Of a stretch of 64,000 nt of DNA, positions 11,446 to 44,814 are shown piece by piece (positions within the stretch are counted from its first letter, which is position 1; every line of letters begins with the position of its first letter). The notes beneath the pieces were generated by a model. That model made no database searches. It saw only the letters and a list, made by a program, of their open reading frames with translations, and had not been told where the DNA came from. Position numbers and translations under genes: made by a program. The stretch comes from Pleurotus ostreatus/Saccharomyces cerevisiae fusant. Taxonomy: Eukaryota > Opisthokonta. The stretch is taken from contig JAMQCK010000032.1 in assembly GCA_024196135.1 (NCBI GenBank), positions 62,001 through 126,000 on the forward strand. The letters are read 5' to 3'.

Positions 11446-14254
11446 CTATGCGGATGGAGGAATCTCATCCACCAAGACGCGCGGAACCTCGTCCCCCACC
11501 TGCTCTATCCTGCGCTTCGTAATCAGACAATAGTGCACCCGGCGTATAACGCTGACAGGATTGACACTCTCTGCCAAGTCGCGGAGCAGATCTATATTGA
11601 GGACGGCGACAGGGTGTGTTTGCCCATCCTGAGGTATCGTGGCGACGTCTGTTTGATCGGGATAAGTCGCGACCACACGTAGCACATGGGCTACATCTTG
11701 GACGGGCGTAGCACCAAGACTAACACGCTGCCAAATCAACGTGTGAGCCAATGGAAAACAATGAAGACGTGAGTATCTTACTTTATCGAAGAGTCGGTCG
11801 GGCGCCAATCGCGCGATGCAGTTCTCCATCTCCTGCGTCGTGACTGCGATGTGCTCGTTCTTCAACACAAACTTCAATACAACGAGGATGACGGTCCCGT
11901 CTCCGAGCTGAAGGTTGAACAGCAAGTCCGCATGGCTGGATCGTGTTGCCACGCAGAATGGCTCCGGCGTGTTGGGCTGCGACTGCAGCCATTGCGCAGA
12001 TTCCGTCGCCCATCGCTCACTGTTCCCTTCATCCGGCCAGGATGTCGTGAATGGAGTTACTTGTGGCTTGCCGTCGTCGCGTGCACTTGTCACCCGTACA
12101 AGGCTGCATATCTCACCGGCCCAGGGAGGGTGCGGATGCGCAAATGCAAAAAGGTCAGAGAGTTTGCGAGGTTCTTTTAGGGCGAGTATGAGCAGGGGAA
12201 TGGCACCGAGGTGGACGGCTTTGTGTTTAGGCACAGTCGTCATTCTGGATGCAGCCGTGTCGCAAAGGAATCCTTCCGCAGGTGTGCACTGAGCGAACAA
12301 CGCCTTGACAAGGGGAAAGACGTATGTCGGCTCGTCCACAGTAGCTTCTGTGCCGTCGGGCTTGGATATAAATGCGAAGGCACGGCGAGCTATACGTAGG
12401 CAGTCTTCCAAGACTTTGACGGGAGCCTCTTGCAGCACGCCCATACGATGGACGGCCATATGCAGCGTAAACCACGCATGAAGATCTGAAGTGATCAAGT
12501 CAGTATTGGTCCCTCAACAGTGTACGACACGCACCATATCGCAAAAGAACCCCAGGATGGAAACCGCCAAGCCCAGCCACAAGCCTATTACACGTGCCTC
12601 TGACCATAGAATCCTCTTCGACCACGGCGTCGCTGGGCTCGATCCCGGCATAGGTGGCCACATAGGCCGTTAAGACCGTGTGCGGGTTAAGGAAGTACGC
12701 CTCGAGTAGGCAATGAATCAATGACGCAGTGGGACGATAGCTGTGTATCTTCATGAGTATAGCACCATCGAGGAGAGACCCAACGAACCGTCCACGAAAC
12801 CAGAGGTATATCCGAGTGAGCAGTTTTCGTCCCGCGACTGAATCGCGCAAGCTGGGAGGAAGGTAGTGTCGAACATACGCAATCTGTCTATCGCGGTTGT
12901 TGAAAGAACCGGTGTCCGTGCATAGCCTATACGGCGTTGCGCTCGTCGGGCAATCCAATTCGAAAGGTAAACCACTCAAGATCAGAGTAAGATCAGGAAA
13001 GGTCTCCCACGAGCGAAGCACAGCATGCAGGGCGGTGGATGGCTGATAGTTGTCGGCGTAATATTCGATGAGTCGCTGCGCATCATCGAGTACGCAGAAC
13101 ATTGGTTCGTCACGCCCAATGAACGCACGGATCTTCAGGAGTGCGTCGCTTATTCGGTGCTGAACGAAAGACGCAGTGGCATGGCGTGTGTCCAACTGGT
13201 CCACAAGGTTGGCAAACAGATCAGGGGCTGAAAGGTGGATAGAGGCCAATTGGAGCAGAAGCCAGCGCCTCCGACACGTGCGAATATCCTTGAGCTCAGG
13301 AAGACTCTCCAGAAAGAGCTTGAAGATCGTGAGACGAGCCAGCATGATACGGTCGGCGAGGTCGCGGGTGGCCTCGGCGCGATCATCCGCCTCTGTCGCG
13401 GAAGACACACCGGACAAGGCTTTTGCGGTGGATGCAGAGAGAGTTACCTGCTTAAGTCCACCTGTCAAGTCACACGAGCCCAACCCGGCGTTCTTGATCG
13501 TGCACGCGATGTAGAGGCCCCAATGCTCGCATAGGCCTTCGAAGAGCAAACGAGTCTTTCCGGTTCCCAGTGCATTCATGAGCATTCTATCTAAAGATGA
13601 GATACTATTGCAATCCAGAAGGGAACGGACGTACGTGTTTTCCCCTGCTCGAAATATATTCCGTAGACGGGCACCGTGGTCGATGGTATGACTTCGATCG
13701 CCCAGTTCGTGCAGGAGGAGAGATGGCCTATTACTCGAAGCGCTCGGTATCCGCAATGAATGAATGAATGCTGAGTAGTCCTCAGGAGCCCGCGAGGACT
13801 CGTTGGACGGTCGCCACACTGGATACGGCTCTTCATTGCCCTTGGCATATTCTAGGAGAAAGTTTTTGTGGGTGCTCTCGAAATCAGCAATGCAGGTGTC
13901 GATCGCCATGTCTGTAGGCGACTGCGCCTTTTGTGATTGCAGGTTGGCGTCTGCGAACGCCAGAAAGTCTGTCGAATGGCTTTAATCCTGACACCAAGTG
14001 TCGAGCTTCATGCACGCACCGCAGTCCCATAGGCGTTGGCAATCTTGTTCACGAATGGCTGACTGAAGGAGCGAATGTACATCGCTTCGCTTCCGCAGGA
14101 GCTCACGACAGGCGGACTCGGATACATAATCTGGATCCGCCGGTTGCAAGCGTTCATGGAAGAAGACGGTCAGAAGCTGTGAAAGCACCGATGCGTGATC
14201 TAGATGTTCTTGGAGAGCTCGGCGGAGTATGCTATGGGCTCGTTCAGGAATCAT
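11446..14254 (-). CDS. A1: NTPase plus degenerate nuclease-like paralogue
   Basis: Member of the local family. Its first coding exon (14254-14020) is exactly 235 nt, as in A2, A3, A4 and A7, and carries the N-terminal motif QPADPDYVSESACRELL. Later exons give LLLHELG, then the P-loop MNALGTGKTRLLFEGL, then Walker B MFCVLDDAQR, then LTLILSGLPFEL, YRLCTDTGSF and RGR. The C-terminal domain is nuclease-like but lacks catalytic residues: VHLGAIPL where B genes have WEN, and SSHADLLFNLQLGDG followed by VVLKFVLKN instead of QCK. A final exon begins VLRVVATYPDQTD. No frame break was found. It diverges from B1 across 146 bp and is tail-to-tail with ABC1. It is closest by eye to A2. Function unknown; the NTPase call is firm. 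Confidence 0.75.
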
Positions 14255-14400
14255 GATCGTTATGAGCAGGTCATGAACACGCGTCGGCAACAATGACGAA
14301 CGCGCGAGATCTGTGACATATTTTGTGACATAGCTCACGCATCCGGCGTCTGTTGCACTTGAGCTCATCTCTGTTGCTCTTAAGGCTGCCGTTGCACAAC
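14255..14400. promoter_or_regulatory. Short bidirectional promoter between A1 and B1
   Basis: Only 146 bp separate the two start codons, so both genes must use this region. It contains a near-direct repeat TGTGACATA (about 14311-14319 and 14325-14333). The arrangement recurs between A4 and B2, but I see no long shared motif between the two gaps. Confidence 0.5.
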
Positions 14401-17400
14401 ATGCGCCTTCAGCTCAGCGACGAGAGGATTCACGATCTGACTCGATGGCAGCATCCGGAAAGGAGTACAGAGGAGGCCGCCGTCATACTGCACGCCATAA
14501 CCATCGGGATCACCGATCCCGCACTCGACCTCGAAAGCTGCGTCCAACGCATCACCGAATATGTTGGACTCGGGCCCCTCATCGTGCAATGCCACACTGG
14601 GAGAAACTACTCTCTCGTACGCGATTTCGGTGAGACGGCCCACTCGACCTTGCGAAGCTATCTGACCTTACTCTCACTAGTCCGAAAGCTAGGAGGGGAA
14701 CGGCAGTCTCTCGTCTACCCCGGAAACCCCCCTCCTGATGCATTTCGACGTGACGTCGCTGCATTCATGGATCAGTACGTCAGAGGAAATCGCCCTCATC
14801 TGCAATGGGGACTGCCTCCCTCGGAGATCTCGCCTGCCAGTCACCACAAGTTTTACAAGACGGCTGAAATCCCTACATTGTCCAAGTCCTTGAACGTTCC
14901 GTGTCTTCTTCTGCACGAACTAGGGTCCTTTTCCGCAGATACGGAACTGCAGAGCCGCGTCGAGATGTTCTTCAATGATCACAATTCGTACGTACTTTAC
15001 TTGCTTGTCTTCGGTATCTAGTCATGCCCTTTCAGATGCTTATGCAACGCTTCTGGTTCCGGGAAGACACGACTACTTCTAGAGGGTCTCTGTCAGCACT
15101 GGGGCTTCTATTGGGTTTGCGGGAAACATAGCCTGGACATCGCTTCCGCAGACCTGCCACGCGCCATCGCTTGGGCAAAGCGCGAGCCTACGTTCAGCAG
15201 CACACTTACTGGGTCGCCTTCCGACCAGCATTCTCAACTGCAGGCTAATCGACTCCTTATTAAGAAGTTGATAGCTGCCGTCGTCCTTGCGCGTGTAACG
15301 GTGTTCAACATCTTCTTGAATGCAGTCCAGGGGCTGCGCCACTCGCGATCACGCACCTCTACGAACTACAGGAAGCTATGGCTTCGCCTTCAGCTAGACC
15401 CGCAGATCGCAGCACAACACTTCGGACTTCCCCCCGATATCTTCACCCGGCTCACCGAGCACTACTTGACCCTTGCGGTAGAAGACGTGACCGCTCAGGC
15501 AACGGAGGCTCTGGACACGATGAGAAAGCATCCCGTCGTGGCGAATGAGGCCATCTATCTCGTCCTTGATGAGGTTCAAGACAGTGCTCGCGAGCTGCAC
15601 CTGGCGTTCCGAAACCCGCATGCTCCTTCCACATCTGACGATAGCAAGCACCCACTACTGTGGGAGCTTATCCGTGCGCTGTCACTCTGCCTCTCGAGAC
15701 AGAGGAAACACGAATACATTGTACTGTCCGGCACTAGTCTGACCGCACACGATGTTGCCTCTGCTATCGATGGTCTGGACGTGCAGATGACAGACAATAC
15801 CGTCAACAAGAGTGTAGCAGTTGACAGCGCTTTGGGAGGATATCAAGACGAGGAGGATCGAGACAACGAACTGAGTGCGTCGAATGCCGGTTACGGCTTC
15901 GTATACATCGGTGGCTTTGACAACTTGTCGGCCGTGAAGAAGTACACCGCCAAAGTAGTTCCTGGCAGTCTCCTCAAACAGGTCGAATGGTCAACGTTGG
16001 AACAGCGGATGTTCAAATGGCTGAGAGGCAGGTATGCCGTCGACCTGGATGTCTTTTGATGTGATCGTGTTCTCATCACCTACGACAGGTTCCGCTTTAT
16101 AGTAGACTACCTCATCGAAGTCCTGGTACACGCTCTCACATATCCTCACCAAGTGCTGGATGAGTATGTATTCAAGCTGAGCGGAATTATGCCGAGTGAC
16201 GGCCACATCGCCCTCGTACTATCGAGAACAAACCCTGCCCTCTCTTCCCTCTACACGGGTGCCGACAATCCCCCTTCCATGATAGCGATAACAACGCCCA
16301 ACGCGATTGACCTCGCAAAGCTGTATGATCATGGTATGCGGGCCTTTTTTCAATGAGCCACGATACACGACTGATTGCTTCCATAGCACAAGCCGTTATT
16401 CCGCCCTGTACACGTGACTCCATGTGCTCCAAACAAACCCGTTGCCGAGAAGCCGGGAGGTCTCACGCCGTCACGCAGCCAAGTCCCGCAGCGGCAAAGT
16501 CGCCACCGTGTCAAGGGCATATCAAAAGTCAGTGTAGACAGTCGATTGACGCTTGTATAGTCATAAGTACACTCGAAAAGACTACACGACCATTGAAGGA
16601 AACTCTAATCAGACCATCAGGGTATTGCCACCCGATGTTAACTCTCACTGTTGCCACTGAAAAGGCATGCCACTGTACGTGATCGCAGGTAATTTTTCAT
16701 CATAATGCATCCATTGACTATCTATACTATACTACGCGCGTCTGTGGCAACCCCCAGCACGATCTGAGGGGGACAGAAGCCACTTCAGGCGGCCACCCGA
16801 TGTCAATGGCGGCGGATGGCTTTTACCGCGAGTGTAGTACACCTATACCAAAAACATACAAGGATAGGGCCACCGAGCGCGGCGGGAGGCGAGAGGGCAG
16901 GAAGTGGCGTGGCGTGGCATGATGAGAGGAGAACGAGAGGACGGCGCGAGGGACGGCGTCTGCGTTACGCGCTGTCACAGAATGATGCGAAACGGATCTC
17001 TCCGAGAACGTGGGATCACGTGTACAGGGCGGAATAACAAGATCTTTCCATAGCTACCATGCAAGGTCGCCTTATTCAGGACGTGAGAGTTGCCGTCTTC
17101 GAATTTATGCTTCGCAAGAAGCGGAACAGCATCGCGGGCGCTGGCTATTCTCAAGACATTGTGAAGATGGGTGTGGCCCGCTACACAGAGGCGGATGGCA
17201 CTCATGAAGTAACGATATCCAAGTACGTCAATATACGCCGAGATCGAAGTCGCTGGCTGATCCCATGCTTTGCATCAGTTCAGACAAAGCGTCTCAAAGA
17301 CATGCAGACAAAGCGTCCAAAAACCGCGGCACTGTTCCATCCGAAATGGGTGTGGTTCCAAGTGAGACCGAACGGCCTGCGGACATCAGTGAGCCGCTCG

Positions 17401-18506
17401 TCCTCCTCGCTCTCTCGCATCACTTCGACACCTGGTCGCCGGGATTGTACACCATGCATCACTTTTGTGGACAACGAATCCCGGGTGACGGAAACAAGTT
17501 CAATGGCTGGGAGAACTACATTGCCATCGCAGTGCTTCGCGCCTTCTCGGGTGATGAGTCTCCCGAGCTCTCGAGATTCCTTCGCTTCCACACCAAGGGA
17601 TGTGACGTGGATGCGCTGAAGAAGAAACGAGCTAGAGTCGTTGGCGTTTTCCGCGCCAGCGAACTAGATCTTGCAGGGGAGTTTACGGACAACACCCGGC
17701 CAGGGCACGACGCTCGAAGGGAATCCGAAACCCGCAGGTCACGCCGAACGTGGTGCCATATTGGAGAGGAGACCAAGTCGCCGACGGAGACACTGCGTTG
17801 GTTCGACAACCCCACGTCGACCGTCTGTTACCCGGATACCTCGTTAGGGCCCGACCTCGCATTTCGTCTGCTTCTCGACGGAAATGAATTGGTCTGGCTC
17901 CTTATCCAGTGCAAGTACCATGTCCACGGTGGCAGCAATAGCAAGGGCGACAATCTAGTATCGAAGTCGGAGCTGACCAAGGATGCGGTTCGCAAGGTCA
18001 CTCCGAATTGCTTTTACAAGACTAAACCGGAGTCTCGTGAGGTGAGTGACGGTGAGGTTTATCTCCGTCGATGGGAGTGACCGTCCAAACTTGATAATTT
18101 ACAGGACGCAGCCGAAAGGGCCGCTCGGGAGGCCGCTGAGGAGAAGACTCGTGACAGCTTCTTGGCGAGCCTCAAGCGCTTACCGTGCGCCACCAGCCTC
18201 GCAGGAACATACAGCGTCATCCGCGTGCTGGCTTACATTCCTACTTATCCTACGCTTGTGCGGCCGCGCTCGAACATCGATGACCCGGACGACGGTAATC
18301 ATCCTCTCGCCGAGCTTAAGTTAGATGAGCTACGGGGTTTACTGAAGGATTTCGAGCCGACGGACGCCATGGCGGACACGATCCTGATGGAGCTCAGCAA
18401 ACTGGCTGAGCAGGGCAAGCTTGCGAATTTCCACCCACCGTCGACTCGAGACAAGCAGGAACAATACAATTACGCTTGGAATTACTACCTGACTCATGCA
18501 CGGTAA
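14401..18506 (+). CDS. B1: P-loop NTPase fused to a PD-(D/E)XK nuclease with intact active site
   Basis: 1053 aa in six exons: 14401-14987, 15036-16031, 16089-16333, 17054-17222, 17279-18041 and 18105-18506; phases agree throughout. Order: an N-terminal helical domain resembling that of the A genes (ILHAITIGITDPAL), then LLLHELG, Walker A CNASGSGKTRLLLEGL, Walker B AIYLVLDEVQD with the catalytic DE, then MFKWLRGR. The nuclease domain has SEPLVLLAL, GNKFNGWENY with the helix glutamate, GPDLAFRLLLDG with the aspartate, and LIQCKYH supplying QxK. This is a complete PD-(D/E)XK site. The tail ends QYNYAWNYYLTHAR. Intron 3 is 720 nt because an inverted-repeat element lies in it. ATP-driven DNA cleavage is inferred from the domains; target and role are unknown. 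Confidence 0.78.
16395..16417 (+). repeat. Left terminal inverted repeat of the B1 intron element
   Basis: 23 bp starting GTTATTCCGC and ending CACGTGA. It is a perfect reverse complement of 17016-17038. Confidence 0.85.
17016..17038 (-). repeat. Right terminal inverted repeat of the B1 intron element
   Basis: 23 bp starting TCACGTG and ending GGAATAAC. It is a perfect reverse complement of 16395-16417. Confidence 0.85.
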
Positions 18507-18797
18507 TCGCGGTAAGCACCTCAATGGCTGTGGCATCGCACTCGACTCATGTGCTCCCTGTTGGTAGTAACCATGATCTCTGCCTTACAACGGTTGATTG
18601 TTTTTACTAAAGGATTGGACGCTCTCTATCGTGTCTCGCTAACGAACGGATATCCATGCTCCGCCTCTCATACACTATAACGTTCTCTTGTACATATGGC
18701 GGCTTTGCTTGATGATACGCGTAAGCTAGTGCGATGCCGTTGTATTTCTGAATCGATGCTACGCGAGCAACCAAAAACGAGAATTCGAGCATAGCAT

Positions 18798-21700
18798 TTA
18801 CTTCAACTTCGCAAGCATCTCCTTCGAAAGCTCTAGCGTAGCGATATCCGCCTCCAACGTCCTGCGTTTGTCAGCATCCGCCGCACGCACATTCTCCGGG
18901 TCGTTCTGCTCGTAATCCGCCTGCGACTCCGTCTTGACGATCTTCTCGAGCGCCAGACGCACGACATCGAGCTTCTTGTCGCACTTCGAGATCTCAACGT
19001 CCAAGTCAACAAGGCCCTGCACGACGACTCAGTTGGCGTAAGCGCGCGAAGGGCTAAAAGTCACTCGGACTCAAGGGTGTGGATGGCGACAGTGGGTGAC
19101 GACGGCGGCACCGCAACCTTCAGGAATACGCTTGAGCTCGCGCACGACCCTCACGGACTCGCAGCGCTTCGTCAACGCGACAATTGTGAGCACCTGAGAC
19201 TCAAAGAGCGCCGCACTCGCATCGGACTGGGCGAGGATGAAGACTGAGGGTCGCGGTTAGCGGCGCGTACGGGAAGTCGAGCGGTCACGTACACTGGATG
19301 TCATTCTGCAAGCTGTACGACGCCGCGAGCGACCGCCCGGTCTTCAACGCGGAGAAGACAAGGTCAAACTGCTTCTCCGCCTCGTCGAAGGTGAAGTCGG
19401 GGCTCTGGTGAGGGAATAAGATCAGTAAGGGGCATGCATGAGCCTTTGGGTGTGTACGTACAGATTCAGGGAACTTGGACAGCATGATCGAAGGCGTCGA
19501 GTCGTTCGGTCGTCTGGGCAAGCGCTGCCACAGCTCCTCCGTCACGAACGGCATGAAGGGATGCAAGAGCCTGAGGCCATGATCCAAGCAGGTGTACAAC
19601 GTCTCCTGAGCGGATCGCCTCGTTTCCGCCGAAGCGCCCTCGTCCGTCATTGGCTCCATTGCTTCCTGTACGGAAATGTGAGCACATCTATGCGACGACG
19701 GAGACATCGATGCACGGACGATGCAGACGTCGCAGAGCTCGCGGAGCCAGAGATTGTACGCCGTGGTGGTCGCCATCATGAAGTTGCGCTCCGTCATCTG
19801 CGAGTTGAGCTCCTTCGCAGCCACGTTCAGCTTGTGCAGGATCCACTTCTCGACGAGGCTCTCCTTCCCGGTGGGCTGCAACCGCATGTCAGTCATCTGC
19901 CATACCCAAATCCCACTGGGTACGCACCTTTGCCGTCGGCTGTGGCACATACGTCTCGTCGAGCTTCAACATCGCAAACTTCGTCGTGTTGAAGATCTTG
20001 TTGCAGAACTTGCGGTACCCCTCCGCGCGCAGGATCTCCGAATTGATGTCGCACCCGCCACCCGAGTATGCGCAGAGCGCGAAGCGCAGCGCGTCCGTGC
20101 CGCACTGCAGGATGCCCTTCGGAAAGTCCTTCTTCTGGCCCTCCTTCGCCTTCTTGATCTCCTTCTCGTCGAGGTTGCCCTCGAGCAGCTGCGCGTGCAG
20201 CTTCTCGAGCTCGCAGCCCTGGATCACGTCGAGCGGGTCGATGACGTTGCCGAGCGACTTGCTCATCTTGCGTCCGTGCGCGTCGCGGATCATGGCGTGG
20301 CAGTAGACCTCGCGGAAGGGCATCTGGTCGGTGAGCTTGAGGCCGAGCATGACCATGCGGGCGACCCAGAAGAAGAGGATGTCCCAGCCGGTCTCGAGGA
20401 TGGAGGACGGGTAGAAGTTGCGGTAGTCGAATGTCTGGAAAGGAGGACGGTCAGGTATGTGCACGACGGAGGCCAATGATATACATGCACGTTTTCTGGC
20501 CAACCCATGATGGAGAAGGGCCAAAGGCCGGAGGAGAACCAGGTATCCAAGACATCCTCGTCCTGCTCGAGAGTGAAGGGCTTGCCGTTGGCGAGAGTCT
20601 TGGCGCGCTCCGTCGCCTCTTCCAGTGTCCGCCCAACCACCCAGTGCTTGCCATCGATTTTCTGTCCGACAGTGAGCAAGCGGGCCGGACGCATGCGAGG
20701 GAGTGCTCACGTCCTGCTCCTCGCCCTCAACGTTGACGAAGTATGCCGGTACACGATGACCCCACCATAGCTGACGCGAGATACACCAGTCCTGGATGCC
20801 CTCCAACCACCGGTACCATTCGTTCTCGGACTGCTTCGGCTGGATGAGAAGTTCGCCGGCTCTTGTGCGCTGGACGAACTGATGAGATCTCTGGGATCCA
20901 GCCTTATGCTTGAGACTGACCTTGATCGCTTCCTCCGCGAGAGGCTTGCAGTTCACCCACCACTGTGGCTTGAGAATCGGCTCGATGACATCTCCAGACT
21001 TGCTGTAGTATATTCATGAGCAGGCCGTACGCCACCAGGTCAGCGCACCGCACGTACCTGCATATAGGGATCTGCATCGGGTTGTCCTTCTTCTCTACAA
21101 ACAGACCAGCCACCTCGAGTGCCTTCACGACCTCCACGCGCGCCTTGAACCTCGGCATGCCCTAAGAACCTCGTAAGCGCCCTGCTCCCAAGCCCAACCA
21201 CGCAGTACGTACCGCGAACTTCTCGCCCGCGTTCTCGTCGAGGGTGCTGTCGTCGTTGAGGATGTTGATGAAAGCGAGGTTATGCCTTGTACCGACGGCG
21301 TAATCGTTCGGGTCGTGCGCGGGGGTGATCTTCACGGCACCGGTAGCGAACGCCATGTCGACGACGTCCGCGTCGGTGATGATGGGCATCTTGCGGCCGG
21401 GGATGAAGGGGTGGATGGCGAATTTGCCGTGCAGGTGCTTGTATTGCGCGTCGTCGGGGTGGACAGCGATGGCGGTCTCTGGACGGGTGGTGGCGATGGA
21501 TCTCTTCAATTTCTTCGTCTGAGAAGGCCGAAATGAGGGAGATGTGCGAAGGGAAGGTGATGTACAACGCACCTGAGTCTTCTATGGGGTATGCGAACGA
21601 AGTGATGACGCCGAACTCGACCTTCTCTTTGTACCCGGGGACGGACAGGAACTCGCGACCATTCAATGCTTTTTGGTCGACCTGAGATTAAGTGAGCGGG

Positions 21701-22100
21701 GAATGATAGGGATACAGTAGCAGCGCACCTCAAGGTTGGACACCGTTGTGTTCAGCCGCACGCACCAGTTGACGGGGCGATTGGCGCGGTAGCTGATTCC
21801 GTCTTGGTGCAACCGGCAGAAGTTCTCAATGACAGCGCGGTAGAGCGGGGGATCCATAGTGTAAGCCTTGCTTGACCAGTCGTAGGAGCCGCCGAGGCTG
21901 CGTAGTTGGTTGAAGGTACAGCTCATGTAGCTGCAGGTCGAGTCAGTACGTTGAAGCAGCTGAAGTTTTGGCTACGTACTCGTCCTTCCACCCCGATGTT
22001 CTCCACGCACTTCTCGCGTCCGAGGTCATGTCACGTCTCTCCGATGCGCTTGGACAACCGCTTCTCGAGTCTCGACGGACAAAGACTTGGGGAGTGCGTC
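18798..22100 (-). pseudogene. psiValRS: 5'-truncated valyl-tRNA synthetase copy
   Basis: Second, inverted copy of the ValRS gene at 34023-37839, with the same introns and, in the middle, only a few differences per 100 bases. It lacks roughly the first 170 residues, including the HIGH-type motif; homology starts around 22100. Lesions by comparison: CGA to TGA at 22033-22031 (GETR becomes a stop), and two C residues missing at about 19093-19096, shifting frame and leading to a stop before the last exon. The KMSKS motif ([11 protein letters not shown]) is still present. The last exon has more changes (ends LSKEMLAKLK). It is tail-to-tail with B1, mirroring ValRS and B2 on the right. It is not expected to make a working synthetase. 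Confidence 0.88.
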
Positions 22101-22185
22101 GAAATGGTTGAAGCTTGAGTTTCCTGTCTGCTGAGCGTGGCCGGCTGACGCGACTTCCCCTTTGGGAAGGCCTTGTCCTCGTTAT

Positions 22186-22330
22186 AGACGCCGGCGGCAT
22201 GAGTTGCATGCCGAAGGCGCTCGCGTGCCTCCTGGTCGATGTGCGCAACCTGCACCTCGTCCACAAGTCGCATTTCGCATCACCCCGACGTACGCGTCGC
22301 GCTCGCTTGGAGCGTCGAACTTTAGTATTA
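22186..22330 (+). pseudogene. ABC1 kinase gene fragment beside psiValRS
   Basis: A scrap matching the intact ABC1 gene around 10907-11045: CATGCCGAAGG, GCTCGCG, CCTCCTG and CGACGTACGCGTCGCGC recur in order, with internal deletions. It lies just outside the truncated 5' end of psiValRS and points the other way, so it marks a rearrangement junction. No usable frame remains. Confidence 0.65.
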
Positions 22331-22489: not shown

Positions 22490-25354
22490 CTATTCGGATA
22501 GATGCGTGTCGTCCGTCCAAACGCGCGGAACTTCGTGCCCTACCAGTTTGATTCTCCGCCTCGTAATCAGTGGGTGGTGCAATCGACGCAGTACACTGCG
22601 ATAAGTGACGCGCTCAGATACATCTTGCAATAGCTTCAGGTTCAACACCCCAACGGGGTACGGCTGCCCATCTTGTGATAGCGTACTGATGTCCGTCTGT
22701 TCAGGGAACGTCGCGACCACTCGCAGCACGAACGGCGTGCCCGCGCCATCGAAGGGCGTAGCGAGACCAGACAGTTGGTGCTGCTGGTCGGCGGACGATC
22801 CAGCGACCTAGAAATCTTCAGTGATATATCACGATGGCTGACTGACGAACTCACCCCATGGAAGAGCCTGTCGGGCGCCAATTGTGCGACACAATGTTCA
22901 AAGTCCTGCGTCGTGACTGCGATGTGTTCGTTTTTGATGATTAACTTCAACACCACGAGTAGGACGGCCCCATCCTCGAGCTGGAGGTTGAACATCAGGT
23001 CCGCATGACTGAATTCCGCCGCGACGCAGAATGGCTCTGGCATGTCGATTCGTAGCTGGAGCCAGGCGGCGGACTCTGTTGCCCAACGTTCGTCAAAGCC
23101 ATCCTCCGGCCAAGATGTCTCGAAGGGTATAGTGCGCAGGTCGCCACCGTCGCCATGAGGGCGCGTCACACGTACAAGCCTGCACGTCTGATTCGCCCAA
23201 GGCGGCCTTGGGTACGCGAATTCGAAGAGGTCGCAGGCTTTGGGAGCTTCCTTGCATGCTAGCAATAGAAGGGGCACGATGGCGAGGTGGATGCCTCGAT
23301 GTATTGGTTCGTCCGTCATGCTCGGCGCGATAGTGGCAGGGAGAAATCCCTCGACAACGGGGAATTCGCGGAAAAGCAGGTCAACAGTAGGGAAAATATA
23401 GAAGGGCTCGTTTATGATAGCTTCACGACCAGTGGCACCGCCGAGCATCGCGAAGCCGGTGCGTGCCAGGTATACGCAGTCGCCAGTGAATCGGACGCAA
23501 TCTTCGCCGAGGACGAGAATGCGATGTATGGCCGTATATGCAGAAAGCAACGCTTGAAGGTCTATGAAGGTTACGCCGCCGCCAGGAATGACGGACCGAA
23601 TGCTCACCGTAGCAAAAGGTGAGGCTAGGCTGGAAACCTCCCAGACCACATACTAGATTTTCGCACTGGGCCCTCACTTCGTCATCCTGTTCCACAGGGG
23701 AATCAGAGGGCTCTATCAGAGCATACGTGGCGACACTGGATGTTAAAACGGTGTGAGGATGGACAAAGCGACTCAGAAGGAGACAGTTCATGGCCATGGC
23801 GGTGGTATAATAACTACAAAAGTGTGAGTCCGTGAACCAGCGTAGTAAGAGGAACAAATGGCGGACCGTCCTCGACACCAAAGGCATATTCGGGTCACCA
23901 ACTTCTTGCCCGCCTGCGTGGCAAGCAGCTCGGGGGGTATGTATCGCTCCACATAAGCCGCCTGCTCGCCGGCTTGATCGAACATACCGGTGTTTGTACA
24001 GACACGATATGTTTTACCTCCTTCATTTGCGGAAGAGCGAATGTCGAAGGGCAACCCGCACATGATGAGCGTGAGATCTTCAAAGCTTTCCCAAGACTGC
24101 AGTATCGCTTGAAGGGCAGTGGACTCCCCGAAGGACTCAGCATGCAATCCGAGGAGCAGTGGCGCATCGTCCAATACACAGAAGAAGGGGGCGTCACGGC
24201 CAATTATCGCCCGAATCTTGAGTAGCGTGTCTGTGATCCTACTTTGGAGGAATCCCGGAGTGGTCCCTCGAATCCGCAGCTGCCTTGCGAAGCGAGGGAA
24301 GATATCGTGATCCAGCACAGCAGAGGCTGAGAGCTGCAGTGCCAGCCAGCGCTTTTGCTGCAGATTGACGTCGCTCGGATCAGGGAGACTCTCCAAGAAA
24401 AGCTTGAAAATAGACAGTCTCGCCAATAGGATACGATCGGCGAGATCGCGGGCGATGTCGGCGTTACAGGTGGCAAGATCGGCTAGAAGTAACTGGGAAG
24501 TTGTGCCGAGGGGTATGCTCCAGAAGTCAGCGAACCCAAGTTCGCCTGTCAGATCGCTCGCCCCAAGCCCAGGAGCCCTGATGTTGCAAGGAATATAGAG
24601 GCCCCAATATCGGCATAGGCCTTCCAGAAGCAGGCGTGTCTTTCCCGTTCCTACTGCGTTCATGAACAGACTATGGAGGTTTGAGTTCTCAGTAGAGTTG
24701 TAAACGGATAACTCGACGTACGTATCACGCCCCGATTGATAGATGCTGTCCAGACGCCCAGGCTGGGCTTCAGCGCGGTCGGAATTGCCCAGCTCATGTA
24801 GAAGGAGGTTGGGAACATTATCCGAGGAGGGACACGGCAAAGCAAGAGCCTTGACAAAATCCGCGTATACTCTGGGCGTTTCAAAGGGCCCATTGGGTGG
24901 AATCCACGCGGGATATGGTTCCCCCTCGCCCCGAGCATAGTCAGACAAAACTTGCCCATACGCCCGCTCAAAGTCACGAATACGATCGTCGATGGCCTGG
25001 TCCGATGCGGATCGTGGTTTCTGCGACTGAAAGCTGTCCTTCGGAAACCTCGAGGACAAGATAACTGGTACCAAGGGCGAGTCAATCTCGATCCGAAAAA
25101 AGATGCCATGGACGCTCACAATATTCCCGAAGGGCCCGACAGTCCTGCTTGTGCATGGTTTCCTCCAAGAGCGAGCGAACTTCGATGTCTTCTTGAAGGA
25201 GCGCTCGGCAAGCTGACTCGGACACATAATCGGGGTCCGCCGGCAATAGACTTTCACAACAGAACATGGTCAAAAGCTCGGACAGTACCGTGGCCGAATC
25301 CAGCTGCTCCTCTAGAGCAAGTCTGAGAATATCTTGAGCGTTCGAGCGAGTCAT
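22490..25354 (-). CDS. A2: NTPase plus degenerate nuclease-like paralogue
   Basis: Full-length member closest to A1. Exon 1 (25354-25120) is 235 nt with LPADPDYVSESACRALL. Exon 2 has NLLLHELGNSD; the intron before the P-loop stays open in frame. Walker A is MNAVGTGKTRLLLEGL; Walker B is FFCVLDDAP, with proline where others have Q or H. It continues LTLIMCGLPFDI, YRVCTNTGMF and RICLWCRGR. The next intron has a weak donor (GTCCGC, about 23876). The C-terminal domain reads IHLAIVPLLLLA, then FSHADLMFNLQLEDG, then VVLKLIIKNEH: the aspartate is kept but no QxK. The last exon ends DDTHLSE. No frame break was found. It follows A3 in the same direction, 234 bp apart. Function unknown. Confidence 0.75.
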
Positions 25355-34022: not shown

Positions 34023-37000
34023 ATGGCGGTAAATGCTCTGAGAGGCTTGTCGACCGCCATCTTTCGCAGAGCAATGTCTACAGTACCTGAGGCGTCCGCG
34101 GCCCCCACGACCAAGTCCGCCGCCAAGAAGGAGGCCAAACGGCTCGAGAAGGAGGCCAAGCTTGCTGCGAAGGCCCTCAAGACAGCCGCCGCTCCCAAGT
34201 CCACCAAGGAGAAGTTGAAGAAGGAGAAGGCCGATGAGCAGGAGTTCGTGAACACCACCCCGGCCGGGGAGAAGAAGGACCTGTCGCAGCCCATGTCCGC
34301 GGGGTACAACCCGACGGCGGTGGAGACGGCCTGGTATGCCTGGTGGGAGGCGCAGGGCTACTTCAAGCCGAAGGAAGACGACGGCAGCCCGACATTCGTT
34401 ATGCCCTCGCCACCACCGAACGTCACTGGTAGCCTGCACATTGGACACGCGTTGACGACCGCCATCCAAGACTCGCTTGTGCGTTGGCACCGTATGCGGG
34501 GCTACCGCACGCTCTTCGTCCCCGGGTTCGACCATGCAGGCATTTCCACCCAGTCCGTGGTTGAGAAGCGGTTGTTCAAGCTTACCGGAGAGACGCGACA
34601 TGACCTCGGACGCGAGAAGTTCGTGGAGAAGGTCGGGGAGTGGAAGGATGAGTGCGTAGCCGAAGCTTCAGCCGCTGCAGTGTACTGACTCGACCTGCAG
34701 CTACATGAGCCGTATCTCCAACCAACTACGCAGGCTCGGCGGTTCCTACGACTGGTCACGCAAGGCTTACACTATGGATCCCCCACTCTACCGCGCTGTC
34801 ATCGAGAACTTCTGCCGGTTGCACGAAGACGGAATCATCTACCGCGCCAACCGCCTCGTCAACTGGTGCGTGCGGCTGAACACAACGTTGTCCAACCTTG
34901 AGGTGCGCTGCTACTGTATTCCCATCATTCCCCACTCACTCAAACACAGGTCGACCAAAAAGCACTCAACGGTCGCGAGTTTCTGTCCGTCCCCGGGTAC
35001 AAGGAGAAGGTCGAGTTCGGTGTCATCACCTCTTTCGCATACCCCATAGAAGACTCAGGTGCGTTTGCGCCATCTCCCCCTCGCACATCTTCCTCATTCA
35101 GCTTCCCAGACGAGAAGATCATCATTGCCACCACCCGTCCGGAAACCATGCTCGGAGACACTGCCATCGCCGTCCACCCCGACGACGCGCGCTACAAGCA
35201 CCTGCACGGCAAGTTCGCCATCCACCCCTTCATCCCCGGCCGCAAGATGCCCATCATCACCGACGCGGAAGCCGTCGACATGGAATTTGGTACCGGTGCC
35301 GTGAAGATCACCCCCGCGCACGACCCCAACGACTACGCCGTCGGTACAAGGCATAACCTCGCTTTCATCAACATCCTCAACGACGACGGTACCCTCAACG
35401 AGAACGCGGGCGAGAAGTTCGCGGTACGTACTGCGTGATTGGGCTTCGGAGCAGGGCGCTTACGAGGTTTCGTAGGGCATGCCAAGGTTCAAGGCGCGCG
35501 TGGAGGTCGTGAAGGCACTCGAGGCGGCTGGTCTGTTTGTGGAGAAGAAGGACAACCCGATGCAGATCCCTATATGCAGGTATGTGCGGTGCGCTAACCT
35601 TGTAGCGTACGGCCTGCTCACGAGTATACTACAGCAAGTCCGGAGATGTCATCGAGCCGATTCTCAAGCCACAGTGGTGGGTGAACTGCAAGCCTCTCGC
35701 GGAGGAAGCGATCAAGGTCAGTCCCACACATGAGGCTGGATACCAGAGATCTTATCAGTTCTTCCAGCGCACAAGAGCCGGCGAACTCCTCATCCAACCG
35801 AAGCAGTCCGAGAATGAGTGGTACCGGTGGTTGGAGGGCATCCAGGACTGGTGTATCTCGCGTCAGCTATGGTGGGGTCATCGTGTACCGGCATACTTCG
35901 TCAACGTTGAAGGCGAGGAGCAGGACGTGAGCGCTCCCTCGCATGCGTCCGGCCCGCTTGCTCACTGTCGGACAGAAAATCGATGGCAAGCATTGGGTGG
36001 TTGGGCGGACACTGGAAGAGGCGACGGAGCGCGCCAAGACTCTCGCCAACGGCAAGCCCTTCACTCTCGAGCAGGACGAAGACGTCTTGGACACGTGGTT
36101 CTCTTCCGGCCTTTGGCCCTTCTCCATCATGGGTTGGCCAGAAAACGTGCGTGTATATCATTGGCCTGTGTCGTGCACATACCTGACCCTCCTTCCTTCC
36201 AGACATTCGACTACCGCAACTTTTACCCGTCTTCTGTCCTCGAGACCGGCTGGGACATCCTCTTCTTCTGGGTCGCCCGCATGGTCATGCTCGGCCTCAA
36301 GCTCACCGACCAGATGCCCTTCCGCGAGGTCTATTGCCACGCCATGATCCGCGACGCGCACGGGCGCAAGATGAGCAAGTCGCTGGGCAACGTCATCGAC
36401 CCGCTCGACGTGATCCAGGGCTGCGAGCTCGAGAAGCTGCACGCGCAGCTCCTCGAGGGCAACCTCGACGAGAAGGAGATCAAGAAGGCGAAGGAGGGCC
36501 AGAAGAAGGACTTCCCGAAGGGCATCCCGCAGTGCGGCACGGACGCGCTGCGCTTTGCGTTGTGTGCGTACTCGGGCGGCGGGCGCGACATCAACTTGGA
36601 GATCCTGCGCGTGGAGGGGTACCGCAAGTTCTGCAACAAGATCTTCAACGCGACGAAGTTCGCGATGCTGAAGCTCGACGAGTCGTTCGTGCCGCAGCCG
36701 ACGGCGAAGGTGCGTGCGCTGAGTAGGCGTAGGAGCGTTCGATAGCTGACATGCATGTCCAGCCCACCGGGAAGGAGAGCCTCGTCGAGAAGTGGATCTT
36801 GCACAAGCTGAACGTCGCCGCGAAGGAGCTCAACGCGCAGATGACGGAGCGCAACTTCATGATGGCGACCACGGCGGCGTACAACTTCTGGCTATATGAG
36901 CTCTGTGACGTCTACATCGTGCGTCCATCTGCGGTCTGCGCTACGAGACCGATACTGACCTCCTTGCAGGAGGCGATGAAGCCGATGACGGACGAGGGCG

Positions 37001-37839
37001 CGTCGGTCGAGACAAGACGGTCTGCTCAAGAAACCCTGTACACCTGCTTGGACCACGGCCTCAGGCTCTTGCATCCCTTCATGCCGTTCGTGACGGAGGA
37101 GCTGTGGCAGCGCTTGCCCAGACGACCGAACGACTCGACGCCTTCGATCATGCTGTCCAAGTTCCCTGAATCTGTACGTACACACCCAACGGCTCATGCA
37201 TGCCCCTTACTGATCTTATTCCCTCACCAGAGCCCCGACTTCACCTTCGACGAGGCGGAGAAGCAGTTTGACCTTGTCTTCTCCGCGTTGAAGACCGGGC
37301 GGTCGCTCGCGGCGTCGTACAGCTTGCAGAATGACATCCAGTGTACGTGACCGTTCGACTGACTGTACGCGCTGCTGACCGCGACCCTCAGTCTTCATAT
37401 TCGCCCAGTCTGACGCGGACGCGGCGCTCTTTGAGTCTCAGGTGCCCACAATCGTCGCGTTGACGAAGGGCTGCAAATCCGCGAAGGTCGTGCGCGAGCT
37501 CAAGGATATTCCTGAAGGCTGCGGTGCCGCCGTCGTCACCCCCACTGTCGCCATCCACACACTTGTCCGAGTGAGCCCTGGTCCTTTGCATGCTAACGCA
37601 AGGACTGACGCGTCGTGTAGGGTCTTGTCGACCTCGACGTTGAGATCTCGAAGTGCGACAAGAAGCTCGATGTTGTGCGTCTGGCGTACCAAAAGATCGT
37701 CAAGACCGAGTCGCAGGCGGACTATGAGCAAAACGTCCCGGAGAACGTGCGCACGGCCAATGCTGATAAGCGCAAGACGTTGGAGGCGGAAATCGCGACC
37801 TTGGAGTTGTCGAAGGAAATGTTTGCGAATTTACAATGA
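34023..37839 (+). CDS. VAS1: Valyl-tRNA synthetase, intact, probable dual start
   Basis: Class I synthetase charging tRNA-Val, over 1000 aa with about ten short introns. Motifs: [15 protein letters not shown] (HIGH), [14 protein letters not shown], the editing domain with [61 protein letters not shown] (KMSKS), a tRNA-binding helical region and a C-terminal coiled coil ending [10 protein letters not shown]. Two in-frame ATGs open the gene: 34023 adds [17 protein letters not shown], like a mitochondrial presequence; 34074 starts [11 protein letters not shown]. In yeast one VAS1 gene supplies both compartments from two starts, and the same is inferred here. It is tail-to-tail with B2 (97 bp). 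A decayed inverted copy lies at 18798-22100. Confidence 0.95.
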
Positions 37840-37936
37840 GTCAGATACAGTACTAAGGAAGGTCTTTCAATGACATATGAACAATCGCGAGTAGCCGCCG
37901 TCGCCTTCTGCTAATCAAGCTGGCCAAGCTGGCATT

Positions 37937-40900
37937 CTAGCGATCGCGAGGCCGCCGCGGTACAGTAGTCTGACGCTTTCCACGCGCTGGTCCACGTTTC
38001 TGGCGCTTGCGCTCGGGTTCATCATCATCCACATCGGTCTGTTGTCGCTCAGCACGATCGTCTCTGACCGAAGGGCCGCGAGCGGAACCTGCAGAAGGAC
38101 CAGCGACAGCGTCAGGCGCAGTGGAGGGCGTGGGTCTGGCCGACCGGCGCAATGACCTCGATGCCGATGGCTGACGAACGAATTAGCCGCAATCCCCGTT
38201 GTCTCAAGGAATAGAAACGTACCGATGTCGACGTCGGGAATGCAGACGCGGGGACTAGGTTGCGCTTGAGGGGCGTTGCCAGCTTCTTCATGCGGAAATC
38301 CCACGCAGCGTCGTATCTGTCCTGCAACGAGACGCCCTGCGGGAGCTGACACTTACCGTCGGCCTCTAGCTGCAGTACGACGTCGGTATACAGCGGCTCT
38401 ACCAGGCAATCCTGCGGTGCCATGTGTCGAGTACTTTGTCTCCAGGGGTCGATCCTGAGCTCCACAAGGGGATGCGAGTCTTTGTAGTCGCGGAAGCGCT
38501 CCAGGCGGCCCAGCAGTGGATGCACGACGATCGCGCGGAGCAGACTGTGCTCTCCGGCCAGGTGCAGCTCGCGATTCGGCAAAGCATCAAGGCAGCGGAG
38601 CATTTCAGCGTTTTTCGTCATGGCCTCCGGGTCGGACAGTGGCTCGAACGCTTGCCTCTTTTTGGGTGAGGGCTTGGATCCTGCCAATGGCTCATCCGGC
38701 GGCCCTTCCGATGGCTTAGGCTGCCCTTCCAATGGCTCAGGCGGCGACCCTTCCGATGATTCATCCAGCGTCTCCTCTAATTCCTCATCCGACGATAGAT
38801 CCGTAAGATCTGACAGCTCTTCCAAGGCATCTCCTGATGATGCCTTCGACGGCTCTCCGGACGATGCTTTCGCCTCCTCGTCGATGGAAACGGGCGCCGA
38901 TGCGCCAGGAGCATCCTCCTTCTCCTCCTCCTGAGGATTATTTGAGACTTAGTCGAGTTCAAGTCGAAGATCGAGTATTAGTGCAAACCTTCCTGACCCT
39001 GTAGAACAATTCCGGCGTTATGCTGCGAATGGCTTGGCGCATGAGATCCTTTTCTGCTGTCAGGGTTGGCGACGGCCTAGTGTGATATTTGCACTGCACA
39101 GCGACCCACACATACTTGCCGTTAGAGAGCTGAAGGACGAAGATCAGGTCGGGGCCGCAAAGGTTGTCGGGGAAGACGAAGGTGGTTGGCAAGGTCTTCA
39201 GCCACTGCAACGTCCGCGCAGAATTTGGACTGCCCTGGCCTATGTAGCAGAACGGTCGCCGGGGTTCCCGAGGTCGCGATCCTGTCTGACTTTGCGCCGC
39301 AAGTCTGGCGTTCGCAAGTTCCCCCGCCGCCCAACCAACGTCCGCGGGCCAGTCAGTGATCACCCCAACCAGCTTGACAGTCTGCTTCGCCAACTCCGTG
39401 TGCCGGCCCGGATCGCAGAAAATGAAGAGCTCGTCGAGTGCGGGATCTTTCTCTCCGGAGAAAAGTTGAATGAAGCCCTGAGCAACGAAATTCTCCCAGC
39501 CGTTGCATTTATTCCCATCGCGCTTGATATCTCTGGCGAAATGGTGGAAACTCGTGTGCACACCGGAGGGAATTGAGTTCAAGTACTGCTCAAGCCCTAG
39601 TAGTACCAGCGGCTCGTTGATATCCGCCGACCAGCCCCCGGCGATGAACTGGCCCGTTGACCCTCCAGTGTTCTCCAACGCAGCACTACAGGGCCACAAT
39701 GAGTATAGCCGAATAATGGTCCATGGGTACTTACTCGTCCGAGCCAGGGGGTATCCAAGTTATGCGAGCCAGCCCCATTTCGAGAATCGTATCCGGGTAA
39801 TCACTGCCCTTTACGACATGCTGGTCCGTCGACCTAATCAACTTGTCGAATATGTTACCGGCGATGTCCGCCAAGAATTTCTGCTGAATGTCCGCTGTGG
39901 AGATCGTGTTAAGGCGCGTGATGCGCCATATATGTCGTTAAAACTCACATTTTCTCTCTAATCTATGATAATTCATCCCGACGATAGTACGCAGCGCGTA
40001 CTGTAATGTCGCATTCGGGATGGCGATGTCAGGGAGCAACCTTTCTCCTGAACTCATGCGGACCGCGAGATACCCGTCACTGGGCATGTAGCCTGTGCAG
40101 TGACGCACCAGGTGGTCCAACAGTTGATGCCCGTACTGGAGCTGGCTTTGCATCAAGATTGCAATGAACGCAACAGCGAATCGATACCTTGGGATGGATC
40201 AGAAATTTGTATAGGATAGCGGAATTAGAATACGTACCTGCCGCGTAGCCATTTGAACGCTCTTCGTAGGAGATAACGATTTCTCTCCCGAAACAGCGGT
40301 GGTAAGACTTTGGTAGTGAAGCGTTCAAGCTGGGGGTATGAATCGAAGCCTCCGAGAGACATGTGTACTCCACTGCCTACGGTTTCAGCTGCTATCACTC
40401 CTTCACGTCCGAGCGCTCGAACCACGTCGGCCCTGGTGAGACTGGTCCCGGTCGGAACGATAATGGAACGGGTGAGGACGGAGCCGATGTGTGTGATGAC
40501 GAAGCCCAGGAGCGAATTTTCGACTACCTCGTGTGATGAGGGTGCTCCGGGTGGCGAGGGCAAGGCTCCAGATGATAAGCTTTTAAACCCGGGTGGCATG
40601 ACACTGCTGGCTGCAAAAGACTCGGGTGTCACCCGATCACCATCTACGGGAGATCCTGAGCAGCCATAAAATTGGGAGTAGACGCGAGCGGGTTCCTGAG
40701 CTTCATCGAGCACTATGTAGAAGCGGTCTGACGAGTACCCCCTCGCGCAAAGGCAAATTCTGACCTCTTCCATAGTCGTACGTGCCTCGTTGTCCAGATC
40801 CTTGTCTTTCTGCACGGCGTCGATGAGGAGACACACCGCAAGATCAAGGAAGACGTCGTGTCCAGCTCGATCGCGAAGGATGGCTGGGTCGAGTTGCAGA

Positions 40901-41845
40901 CGAAGCCAAAGGACTCTGACGTCCTTGTCAGATAGAACTCGTCCGGGCCTAGAGGACATCTGCAAGAGAAGGAGGAAGACGTGGAGGCGAGCGAGAAAAA
41001 CAGCGGATACTCGTGATTCAATTGATGACTGAGCCCAGAGTGGGTCCGTATCGAGCAGAGTATAGGCGGTCACCGGGCGATCTCTGGTAGCGCCGAGTGC
41101 AGATTGCATATCCGGCGAACCAATGTGTGTAGGATCCTTCAAGGCGCAGGTCATATAGAAGCCCCAATGCATGGTTAGTCCTTCCAAAAGGAGGCGTGTC
41201 TTCCCTGCCCCTGGTGCGTCGCATATATATCTAGAAACGAGTGCTATCAGTTTGTCTTTCGTACAGAAAGGCAGGTTTGTTACGCACGAGGCCGATTCTC
41301 CGAAGATTGCGTCCACTTGCTCCTGTGGAGCGTCTCCTAGATTGTGAAGCAAAAAGAACGGAAGATCTGACGTTTTGCTGTGCGATGGGATTTTCTGCGC
41401 GCCATAGAACTTGGCAGCATCCTTATCGTCGCCGCGATACATCCAGAGCGGTAGCGAACGTCTGTTGTCAACGATCTCAACGATTGATTGCTTGATCTCA
41501 TCGAGAAAGTCGTCTGGCGTCGTTGAATCCACCACCATGGACCAGACTTGAGGACCTTCGTCTGCGAGTGACATGAATAATTTTGGCGGTAGACTATGAG
41601 TGTTGTGACCTACCCAGTACGTGGCGCAGGACCCCATAAGCTCTTGTGGAATGAGCTTGTTTGACCAAGCGTATCAGACGGTCTTGTTGGCGATGGAGGG
41701 CATCATGACAATCAACAAGGGTTGGCGCCGGATTGACCAGACCAATCGAGACAAGGTGAATGATAGTGCTGGCGTCGTACAAGTTGGTAGGATCAAGATG
41801 TGCTGTGCGTCGATATATATCCGCATCAGTGAGATGCGCCGCCAT
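37937..41845 (-). CDS. B2: P-loop NTPase fused to a PD-(D/E)XK nuclease, with acidic linker and basic tail
   Basis: 1178 aa in eight exons: 41845-41614, 41561-41288, 41230-40238, 40187-39949, 39894-39735, 39685-38989, 38930-38223 and 38170-37937; all phases agree. N-terminal domain (IGLVNPAPTLVDCHDAL), FFLLHNLGDA, Walker A CDAPGAGKTRLLLEGL, Walker B FYIVLDEAQE, FKWLRGR. Nuclease: INEPLVLLGL, GNKCNGWENF, GPDLIFVLQLSNGK, VAVQCKYH, i.e. a complete E...D...QxK site. Compared with B1 it adds an acidic/serine/proline linker (SSDEELEETLDESSEG) and, beyond B1's end, a tail with PERKRQKRGPARGKRQ, a bipartite-type nuclear localisation signal. It diverges from A4 across 138 bp. Nuclear ATP-dependent nuclease is the best guess. 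Confidence 0.77.
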
Positions 41846-41983
41846 TACTTGCGCATAGAGCGCTAGTGAGCTCTGAGTCGGTCGTGGTTGCAATCGGATG
41901 AGGCGTGTGCGAAGGATCTCCGCCTCCGTATAGTCACGTGTAATGTTCACACGCGCGCATCGTCCATCTTGTCCCGAATCATC
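41846..41983. promoter_or_regulatory. Short bidirectional promoter between B2 and A4
   Basis: 138 bp between the two start codons, almost the same spacing as between A1 and B1. It contains TCACGTG (about 41934-41940), an E-box-like palindrome core. No TATA box is obvious. Confidence 0.5.
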
Positions 41984-44814
41984 ATGGCCGATGATGAGAT
42001 CCAAAGCGTCCTGCTTTGCGCTGCGAGGGACAAGCATGACTACGCTCATGTGCTATCCCAATTGCTTGAAGCTCTTTTTCGACGACGTATGCAACCCTTG
42101 GATCCTGATTATGTGACGCCGCAGGGCTGCATCCAACTTCTGGCCGATCATCCTGACATCGAGCTGCTCGTCAGGAAAGCCGTCGAGACACAGAATAGTA
42201 GCATCGTCGCTTCGTCAGGTGCGTGTACCCGTAATGCCACAAGGAGGGTAATCCAACACTTCACAGGTCTTTTGCGATTCGACAACACGGCATTGCGCTC
42301 GTATAGGCCTCAAATCTCGTCCGACAACACTGTTGACCGCGTCATAGAGGAATTCAAGCGCGATCATAGGACGATCATCGAAAATTTCGCCAAGAGTGAC
42401 GTACGGCTGCCTTCTTGGACGCCTACGACCGCTTGTTCAGGGGATTACGCGGATTTCATCGCCTCTCTGAATATTCCTCGCTTAGACGATTCCAAGCCCT
42501 GTCTTGTTATGCATGACCTGTGGCCTCAATTCGATATGCCGACTACGGCGCAACGGTTGAGGAACCTCTTTCAGCCAGGCCATCACACGTAAGGCACATA
42601 ATCCAAACAGCGTGGTCGATGTTTTAAATTTCAGCAGAATATTTCTAAACGGCGCGGGAGCAGGAAAGACCCGTCTTTTATTCGAGGGCCTCTCGAGGAA
42701 CTGGGGTCTGTACCTACCATCTTTCCTACAGCCACTATCTCCTGGGTCGTCCGACCTGTACGAGGCTATCTCTGCAGGACTTCATCGCATGCAGTCGACG
42801 AAGAAATTCACGGGACTCGCTACTGCCGATGTTGTCGCTCGTAATATTCACCTCGCTCGGCGCGTCTTCTTGCAGGTCCTTCTGGCCAGGCTTACGATGT
42901 TTCAATTGTTCCTCAATTGTGCCCCTTCACCGAACGACACTGACACCCGCATCCGCTGGCTGGCCTTACAACTGGCCCCCATACCTTTGGTGAAACGGGA
43001 CATATTCAGGACCCTCTCGGTTCGCGTCACTGTCCATGACGCCAGCCTGCCTTACCTCGAAGGCCGGATCACGGATACTCTCCTCGACATTCGATCCAAG
43101 CTTGGTGTTGACCAGCCGATTTTCTGTGTTGTTGACGATGTCCAACATCCCTGCCTCCAGTACCCCGATCATTTCGGAAGCTCGAGTGCTGTACAGGAGA
43201 TGGCCTGGGCCTGGGATCGCCACGCAGACCTTACTCTCATACTAGCAGGTCGCCCATCGGGAATGCCATTGGACAAGCTTGACGCGCTGGGTTATCGACT
43301 CTGCACAGACACGGGTTCTTTCAATGAACCCGATGAGCACTTGAACTACGTGCGACGGTATCTGCCCCCTCGTTTGATTTCTTCGGCGTGCGGGGAAATG
43401 CTCCTACGTCGTATATGTCTTTGGCTTCGAGGCCGGTGAGAGCAGTAGGCCGCCTTGTACTCACGAAGACAAACTCATCACTTGTCTCTAGATACCGCAT
43501 CACAGCCCTCTTTGTCCATTGCTTGATGGCCGCTGGTTATCGTCATCCGCACACCCTGTTGAACACATATCTGTGTGTGTTCGGCAAAGTCAATCCCGCA
43601 GATGGCCCCCGCCATACGAGCGCCGCGGCGAGGAAGGAGTGTAGTATTGTGGTGGGCAGTCGTGGTCGGTACGATCCAGCCCAAATTCTCTCTCAAGGTA
43701 GGCATCCAATCGTCGACATGTCCATCCGCTCATCTTTGCCAGATTTGCAGGCGTGGTCTTCTGCGCAGACAGCCCTGAATCGATTAATGACGCTGGGACA
43801 AGACGCCGTTCACTTTGCGGAGGATTGCGTACATCTGGTCTCGCTTGAATTTGCAACATTTACGCGACCCGACGCGAGTGAAGTTGTCGTCAACGAACCG
43901 CTCTTTGTCTTTCCTGTCGCGGACGTATTATTTCATCGCTGGGGTCCCACATACGGCTTCCTGAGCAGCTCTGCTGCGTCTGGGCTACGCTGCCCTCCGG
44001 TCCACAAGTCATTCCACATTGCTGCCGTTCCTTTGCTACTTCTTGCCCTGCAAGGACGTATGCGACTGTGCGACATATTTGCGTTCCCCGACCCTGCTCC
44101 ACAGTGGGTAGATCAGGTGTGCAAACTCGTGCGCCTCACGCGTTCCAACAACGGGCGCGAACTACAGGCTATCCCATACGTCACCTCGTTTCCTGGCGCA
44201 GACGCAGATGGCCCCTGGGCAATGGAATCGCCGCAGTGGTTGGGAGGCTTTGCGTCGGAGCCGTTCTGCATCGCTGCAGGCTTCAGCCACGCCGACCTTC
44301 TGTTCGCGCTTCAAGTTGGAGAGAGTCGGACGTTCTACGTTGCGCTCACGATCTTGCTCAAGAATCAGCACGTCGATGTGCCCATCACCGTCATCCAGCA
44401 CGTCTTGGATAGCCTGGACTCAGCGCATCTATTCAACGTACGCCTCTTTCTCCCCGGGATCATCTATGTAGACTGAGCTGTATTTCACAGGTAAGGGATG
44501 CGATCAACCGCCCCCAGTACCCAACGCTTGATCTATGCACACCGGTGGATGGTTCGGGGCCGCCGTCCATGCTACGTGTGTTCGCGACTTTCCCGGATGC
44601 GACCGACATTCGCATCCTACGGCCGGACAAGTCGTCGCAACCGATGGCCTCACTTCGGATGGACGTACTACAGAAGCTTTCGGAGAGTATCCCTTACGAC
44701 AGCATAGTGTCTCGACTCGATGCTGCCTTCATCCGGCGTCGGAAGGACAAGCTTTACGGAGATGCGCCTATAAGCTTCCAAGCTGAGGGTGACGATGGAG
44801 AGATTGTTGGCTAG
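41984..44814 (+). CDS. A4: NTPase plus degenerate nuclease-like paralogue
   Basis: The best-defined A gene: 859 aa, six exons 41984-42218, 42267-42588, 42638-43435, 43492-43697, 43743-44437 and 44491-44814, all in phase. It begins MADDEIQSVLLCAARD; then QPLDPDYVTPQGCIQLL, CLVMHDLWPQ, P-loop LNGAGAGKTRLLFEGL, Walker B IFCVVDDVQH (DD, not DE), LTLILAGRPSGM, YRLCTDTGSF, RRYLPP and ICLWLRGR. The nuclease-like domain has VVNEPLFVFPV, FHIAAVPLLLLAL (H for the catalytic E), FSHADLLFALQVGE and YVALTILLKNQ, so even the lysine kept in most A genes is T here. The last exon carries MLRVFATFPDATDI. It is head-to-head with B2, tail-to-tail with psiABC1. Nearest relative A7. Confidence 0.78.

Follow-up and report, generated by a model that had tools for sequence, protein, structure and literature searches.

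Head-to-head pairs of a predicted NTPase-nuclease gene and a paralogue with an incomplete predicted site in a fungal genome

In this genome (40.05 Mb, 1277 contigs), each of the eight B genes that could be modelled has an A gene lying head-to-head with it. As far as motifs allow a prediction, B would be an NTP-dependent nuclease and A a catalytically dead relative of it. The window, i.e., the whole stretch of 64,000 nucleotides analysed here (bases 62001–126000 of contig C525), has many short introns across it, which give it a fungal look, and contains two of these divergent pairs, A1/B1 and B2/A4, both of which we find at the positions given in the first-pass annotation. A1 (11446..14254, minus strand, start at 14254) and B1 (14401..~18506, plus strand, start at 14401) have 146 bp between their ATGs (14255..14400), and B2 (38112..41845, minus strand, start at 41845) and A4 (41984..44814, plus strand, start at 41984) have 138 bp (41846..41983); from the sequence and the start codons, each of these gaps is predicted to be a shared promoter.

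The two A genes of these pairs have six exons each, with matching intron places, and in both the nuclease-like C-terminal domain reads without GPD or QxK; the P-loop NTPase of A1 has GTGKT and a Walker B of LDD. B1, with about eight exons, has a P-loop NTPase (GSGKT, Walker B LDE) and a predicted nuclease domain, the exon of which (17363..18041, plus strand) holds the columns that are invariant in seven B genes; the reading frame places the predicted site at 17511–17513 (the GxE glutamate), 17847–17855 (GPD), and 17907–17915 (QxK). B2 is similar, with about eight or nine exons, GAGKT and LDE in the P-loop NTPase, and its predicted nuclease domain exon at 38998–39684 on the minus strand. The end of B1 is taken from its last open frame, and the 3′ end of B2 is uncertain, with a spliced model unbroken to 38295 and an open frame ending at 38112. 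All four paired genes had been thought to be without frame breaks, and this stands: once spliced, A1, A4, B1, and B2 need neither a frame shift nor a stop, in the case of B1 only when a 720-bp intron (16334–17053) is removed from the model. This predicted intron contains a 644-bp inverted-repeat element (16395..17038) with arms of 35 nt that are 89% complementary. The element has partial relatives on three other contigs: C407 and C358 have matches to its end pieces, similarly spaced, and C874 has a match to one end, a pattern that suggests a family of small non-autonomous DNA transposons.

The search of the genome gave 25 matches to the B1 core and 40 to the A1 core, from which spliced modelling of the matched loci produced 8 genes of the B type and 18 of the A type, 8 of the latter paired and 10 unpaired; these counts are lower bounds, and no loci were added in this genome by queries with a far B, a far A, and a C403 B. 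Apart from B1 and B2, the B genes lie at the end of C525 (a copy cut by the contig end), on C403 (two), and on C1130, C1271, and C1136 (one each). Start codons lie 186 and 197 bp apart in the C525-end pair and the second C403 pair and, with an inferred A start, about 121 bp apart in the first from C403, while the three far pairs have roughly 300–430 bp between modelled exons, their B starts not being fixed.

The first-pass annotation had named B genes usually lying alone as the observation that would speak against a paired module; in this genome none of the eight does (0/8), and because the B queries also picked up A genes, a B gene as divergent as these but standing alone ought to have surfaced. 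The unpaired genes, by contrast, are all A genes (10/10): A2, A3, A5, A6, and A7 in the window, and copies on C1271, C1136, C1108, C981, and C332, of which the C1136 copy begins near the contig start, where a partner may have been lost. Pairing persists down to 28–37% identity in the B NTPase, and across five contigs. The second haplotype of a dikaryon could account for some of the small contigs; yet C525 has three pairs and C403 two. The proposal of a recurrent module kept over time is well supported inside this genome, but the two window pairs, from which it was drawn, are not independent cases, since both are in one inverted block duplication.

This block consists of an ABC1 kinase gene, A, B, and a class I tRNA synthetase. 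The synthetase copies adjoin B1 (18805..22066, minus strand; Pfam PF00133) and B2 (34563..37832, plus strand; Pfam PF00133 and PF08264), and three ABC1 kinase-like copies (9361–11280, 45162–46950, and 47492–48725; 74–79% DNA identity) are on the A side of both pairs. Between the halves of the block, at 30572–32320, is a gene of the CBF/Mak21 family. The synthetase arms are 90% identical, and the identity stops sharply at the end of the gene. Synonymous divergence is 0.14–0.32 for the synthetase, saturated or 4.3 for B, and saturated or 2.5 for A. To go by these figures, either the pairs would predate the arms by far, or conversion would have acted on the arms, or two very unlike haplotypes would have been joined; diverged cores between like flanks may also resemble idiomorphs. 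In a genome search at E 1e-10, the synthetase matched only its two places on C525 and ABC1 matched only on C525, so the other pairs come without these flanks.

The distinction between A and B is clearest in the C-terminal region. In B, the motifs E-P, G-x-E, G-P-D, and Q-x-K are invariant in all seven readable genes (of eight, the C525-end copy being left out), at only 22–35% identity to B1, and their order is that of PD-(D/E)XK nucleases with a Q variant. The C-terminal domains of A and B are homologous (hhalign 98.9%, E 1.7e-17); in the A genes, GPD is found in 0/16 and QxK in 0/16 of the readable copies (of 18, the C1108 and C981 copies not being readable). The ten near A genes retain the aspartate without the GP, and both Q and K are replaced in register; nine of the ten have a lysine two residues past the lost one, but at the position that Q, E, or D should occupy their residue is hydrophobic. 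In the six readable far A genes, the aspartate is lost, and five of them retain Q without K, while C332 has E-T-R; the alignment of the helix glutamate in these far genes is uncertain. Loss of the site in A thus seems to have taken two routes, and some residual function may persist in the near clade.

In the NTPase, every one of the 26 A and B copies modelled has the GxGKT motif, and Walker B reads DE in 7/7 readable B genes and DD, DE, DK, or DN in A. The P-loop NTPase is called by motif, no Pfam family having scored above the cut-off in the exons scanned, and fold and family searches gave no match that would support a nuclease. The AlphaFold models were both poor (pLDDT 47.6 and 54.5); one of these low-confidence models has the order helix, strand, strand, strand, helix. 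One of the earlier suggestions for the pair, an active nuclease whose partner is regulatory or protective, fits the motif pattern of B versus A, with the amendment that A, by motif, is not an active nuclease.

Sequence comparison makes A and B old paralogues, sharing an N-terminal region, the P-loop NTPase, and a C-terminal domain laid out in a PD-(D/E)XK-like way. In a joint tree, B forms one clade (support 100) and A a near clade (80) and a far clade (100), which, given an assumed root on the B stem, is the picture of a single A/B split followed by joint diversification. Trees built separately for A and for B agree across the eight pairs (Mantel r 0.966; 1 of 40,320 permutations), also without the truncated B (0.978; 1 of 5,040 permutations) and for the near pairs only (0.96; 2 of 120 permutations). 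By this measure the pairs are inherited as units, and no swap of partners is visible, but linkage alone would produce the same match between the trees. For A, dN/dS is 0.14–0.27 in six comparisons, of which three have dS > 1 and up to four include a damaged or doubtful copy; the only one of the six between two paired genes, C1130 versus C1136, gives 0.24. The one B comparison gives 0.15. On these estimates, A is under purifying selection although its predicted site is incomplete. Separately, two A proteins, L041 (C1130:5241-7469) and L036 (C1136:6070-8372), are near-identical over much of their last part while their NTPases are 61% identical, which suggests gene conversion between copies.

Damage is distributed unevenly among the copies. 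In the window, the unpaired A5 (49281..51951, plus strand) is without its first ~23 residues, A6 (52351..54816, plus strand) is without part of its first exon and has the P-loop glycine replaced, and A7 (57651..60421, minus strand), 75% identical to A4, has two frame breaks, all in agreement with their earlier description as damaged. A3 (25630..28407, minus strand) is intact, again as described; A2 (22538..25354, minus strand), also thought to be intact, has one possible break at the junction of exons 1 and 2, perhaps a modelling artefact. Over the genome, frame breaks are found in 0/16 paired versus 4/10 unpaired genes (p 0.014), the four being A7 and the C1136, C1108, and C981 copies, with A2 not counted and several gene ends outside the models behind these counts. 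Among the A genes alone the contrast is weaker (p 0.069). It is also model-dependent: with the initial A1 and B1 queries, three paired genes were modelled with one break apiece, and with closer references these breaks vanished.

We propose, at about an even chance of being right, that the pair is a two-component nuclease, in which B is the executor and A, catalytically dead, is the partner that likely binds and restrains it. The two genes would be co-expressed from their short shared gap, and the proteins would form an A:B hetero-oligomer via the NTPase and nuclease-like domains, in which A would both restrain and license B, so that B would cut nucleic acid only when triggered, for instance by foreign DNA, by an invading element, or by an incompatible nucleus. 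In the absence of A, B would be harmful, and this, if so, would account for B never being found alone while A often is. The evidence does not separate restraint by A from help by A; restraint is our proposal.

Help is what an obligate structural heterodimer like XPF-ERCC1 or MUS81-EME1 would entail, with A as a DNA-binding or stabilising subunit that B needs, e.g., in repair or recombination. The likeness is real in that a predicted active nuclease (B) is combined with a predicted inactive homologue (A), and XPF-ERCC1 is such an active/inactive pair, auto-inhibited until DNA binds, by the helical domain of XPF itself (PMC7048804, in the sections available); purifying selection on A and the absence of any B without A are also what a heterodimer would lead one to expect. 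Multiple copies, saturated divergence between them, and broken copies are, however, unlike conserved repair genes, A and B being multi-copy and fast-diverging with an NTPase in both partners, and ten A genes have no B neighbour. Pfam scans of the A and B exons gave no ERCC4 match, and B has GPD...QxK in place of the ERK motif given in the same sections of PMC7048804. We regard such a heterodimer as unlikely. Still less probable to us is passive linkage, in which an inverted tandem duplication gave rise to A and B and they have since been copied as blocks, with no joint function: a single inverted block does hold both window pairs together with the genes that flank them, and linked genes copied together yield congruent trees anyway, but the pairing has survived to 28–37% B NTPase identity on five contigs, and the synthetase and ABC1 flanks match only C525 at E 1e-10, which puts the other pairs outside this block. 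Passive linkage also sits poorly with orphans that are 10/10 A and never B, and with a division into active and dead to which the readable copies show no exception.

A selfish or transposable two-gene element, or a derivative of one, with A as antidote or targeting subunit and B as toxin or cutting enzyme, would suit copies that are multiple, clustered, and diverged, and prokaryotic NTPase plus REase proteins have been linked with transposable elements (PMC5289972, in part). Our scans, however, found no inverted repeats bounding either window pair, the clear inverted-repeat element being inside the B1 intron instead; the divergence of the copies is too great for recent mobility, and relatives were not found in plasmids (one query) or in viral contigs. 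We consider this explanation, too, distinctly improbable.

The two-component nuclease could, more speculatively, be a fungal counterpart of the paired immune receptors of plants: multi-copy head-to-head pairs whose dead member would hold back a nuclease executor until foreign DNA or an incompatible nucleus releases it, so that mismatched partners would kill, as a self/non-self recognition or toxin-antidote system. We put this forward as a doubtful idea. If the two-component nuclease is right, it would add a nuclease-based two-component conflict system to fungi, with an active enzyme governed by a back-to-back dead paralogue, and the role of a fungal NTPase-nuclease family would be directly testable with two genes. 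The pattern is easy to check in other fungal genomes: a site intact in readable B genes and incomplete in readable A genes, and no lone B. A search of the literature did not find a head-to-head pair of the A/B type.

Among known systems, the closest in domain content are the CR (Crinkler-RHS-type) NTPase plus REase proteins, reportedly treated by Zhang et al. in 2016. Proteins with these two domains are known as CR-type proteins, and helical headers other than Ubl/Crinkler occur among them (PMC5289972, in the portion available). A and B are like them in having a P-loop NTPase, followed by what may be a nuclease domain of the REase superfamily, and in being multi-copy and diverged, and unlike them in that no Crinkler header or sequence match was found. 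The Crinkler header PF20147 had no match here, nor in 14 control genomes, so this header search is uninformative; the N-terminal exons of the window gave no Pfam match. The fixed head-to-head arrangement of an intact and a dead paralogue is a further difference, as the same portion of PMC5289972 describes no such pair, and the CR-type label for A and B is unproven. Fungal heterokaryon incompatibility offers a likeness in arrangement: according to the available part of PMC12881547, such incompatibility more often rests on two tightly linked genes, some of them idiomorphs. A and B are tightly linked in the same way, though a nuclease pair is not among the systems that this part describes.

In plants, the partner (sensor) of the NLR pairs RGA4/RGA5 and RRS1/RPS4 represses the executor, and the P-loop of the executor alone is needed (PMC9528088, in excerpt); paired plant NLRs also appear as a precedent in the corresponding excerpt of PMC11298796. 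No NB-ARC or LRR Pfam match was found in the A and B exons scanned. Like these pairs and CHS3/CSA1, A and B are head-to-head paralogues encoding NTPase proteins, with executor and partner roles proposed; unlike them, the executor domain is predicted to be nuclease-like, and what distinguishes A from B is the loss of an active site rather than an integrated decoy.
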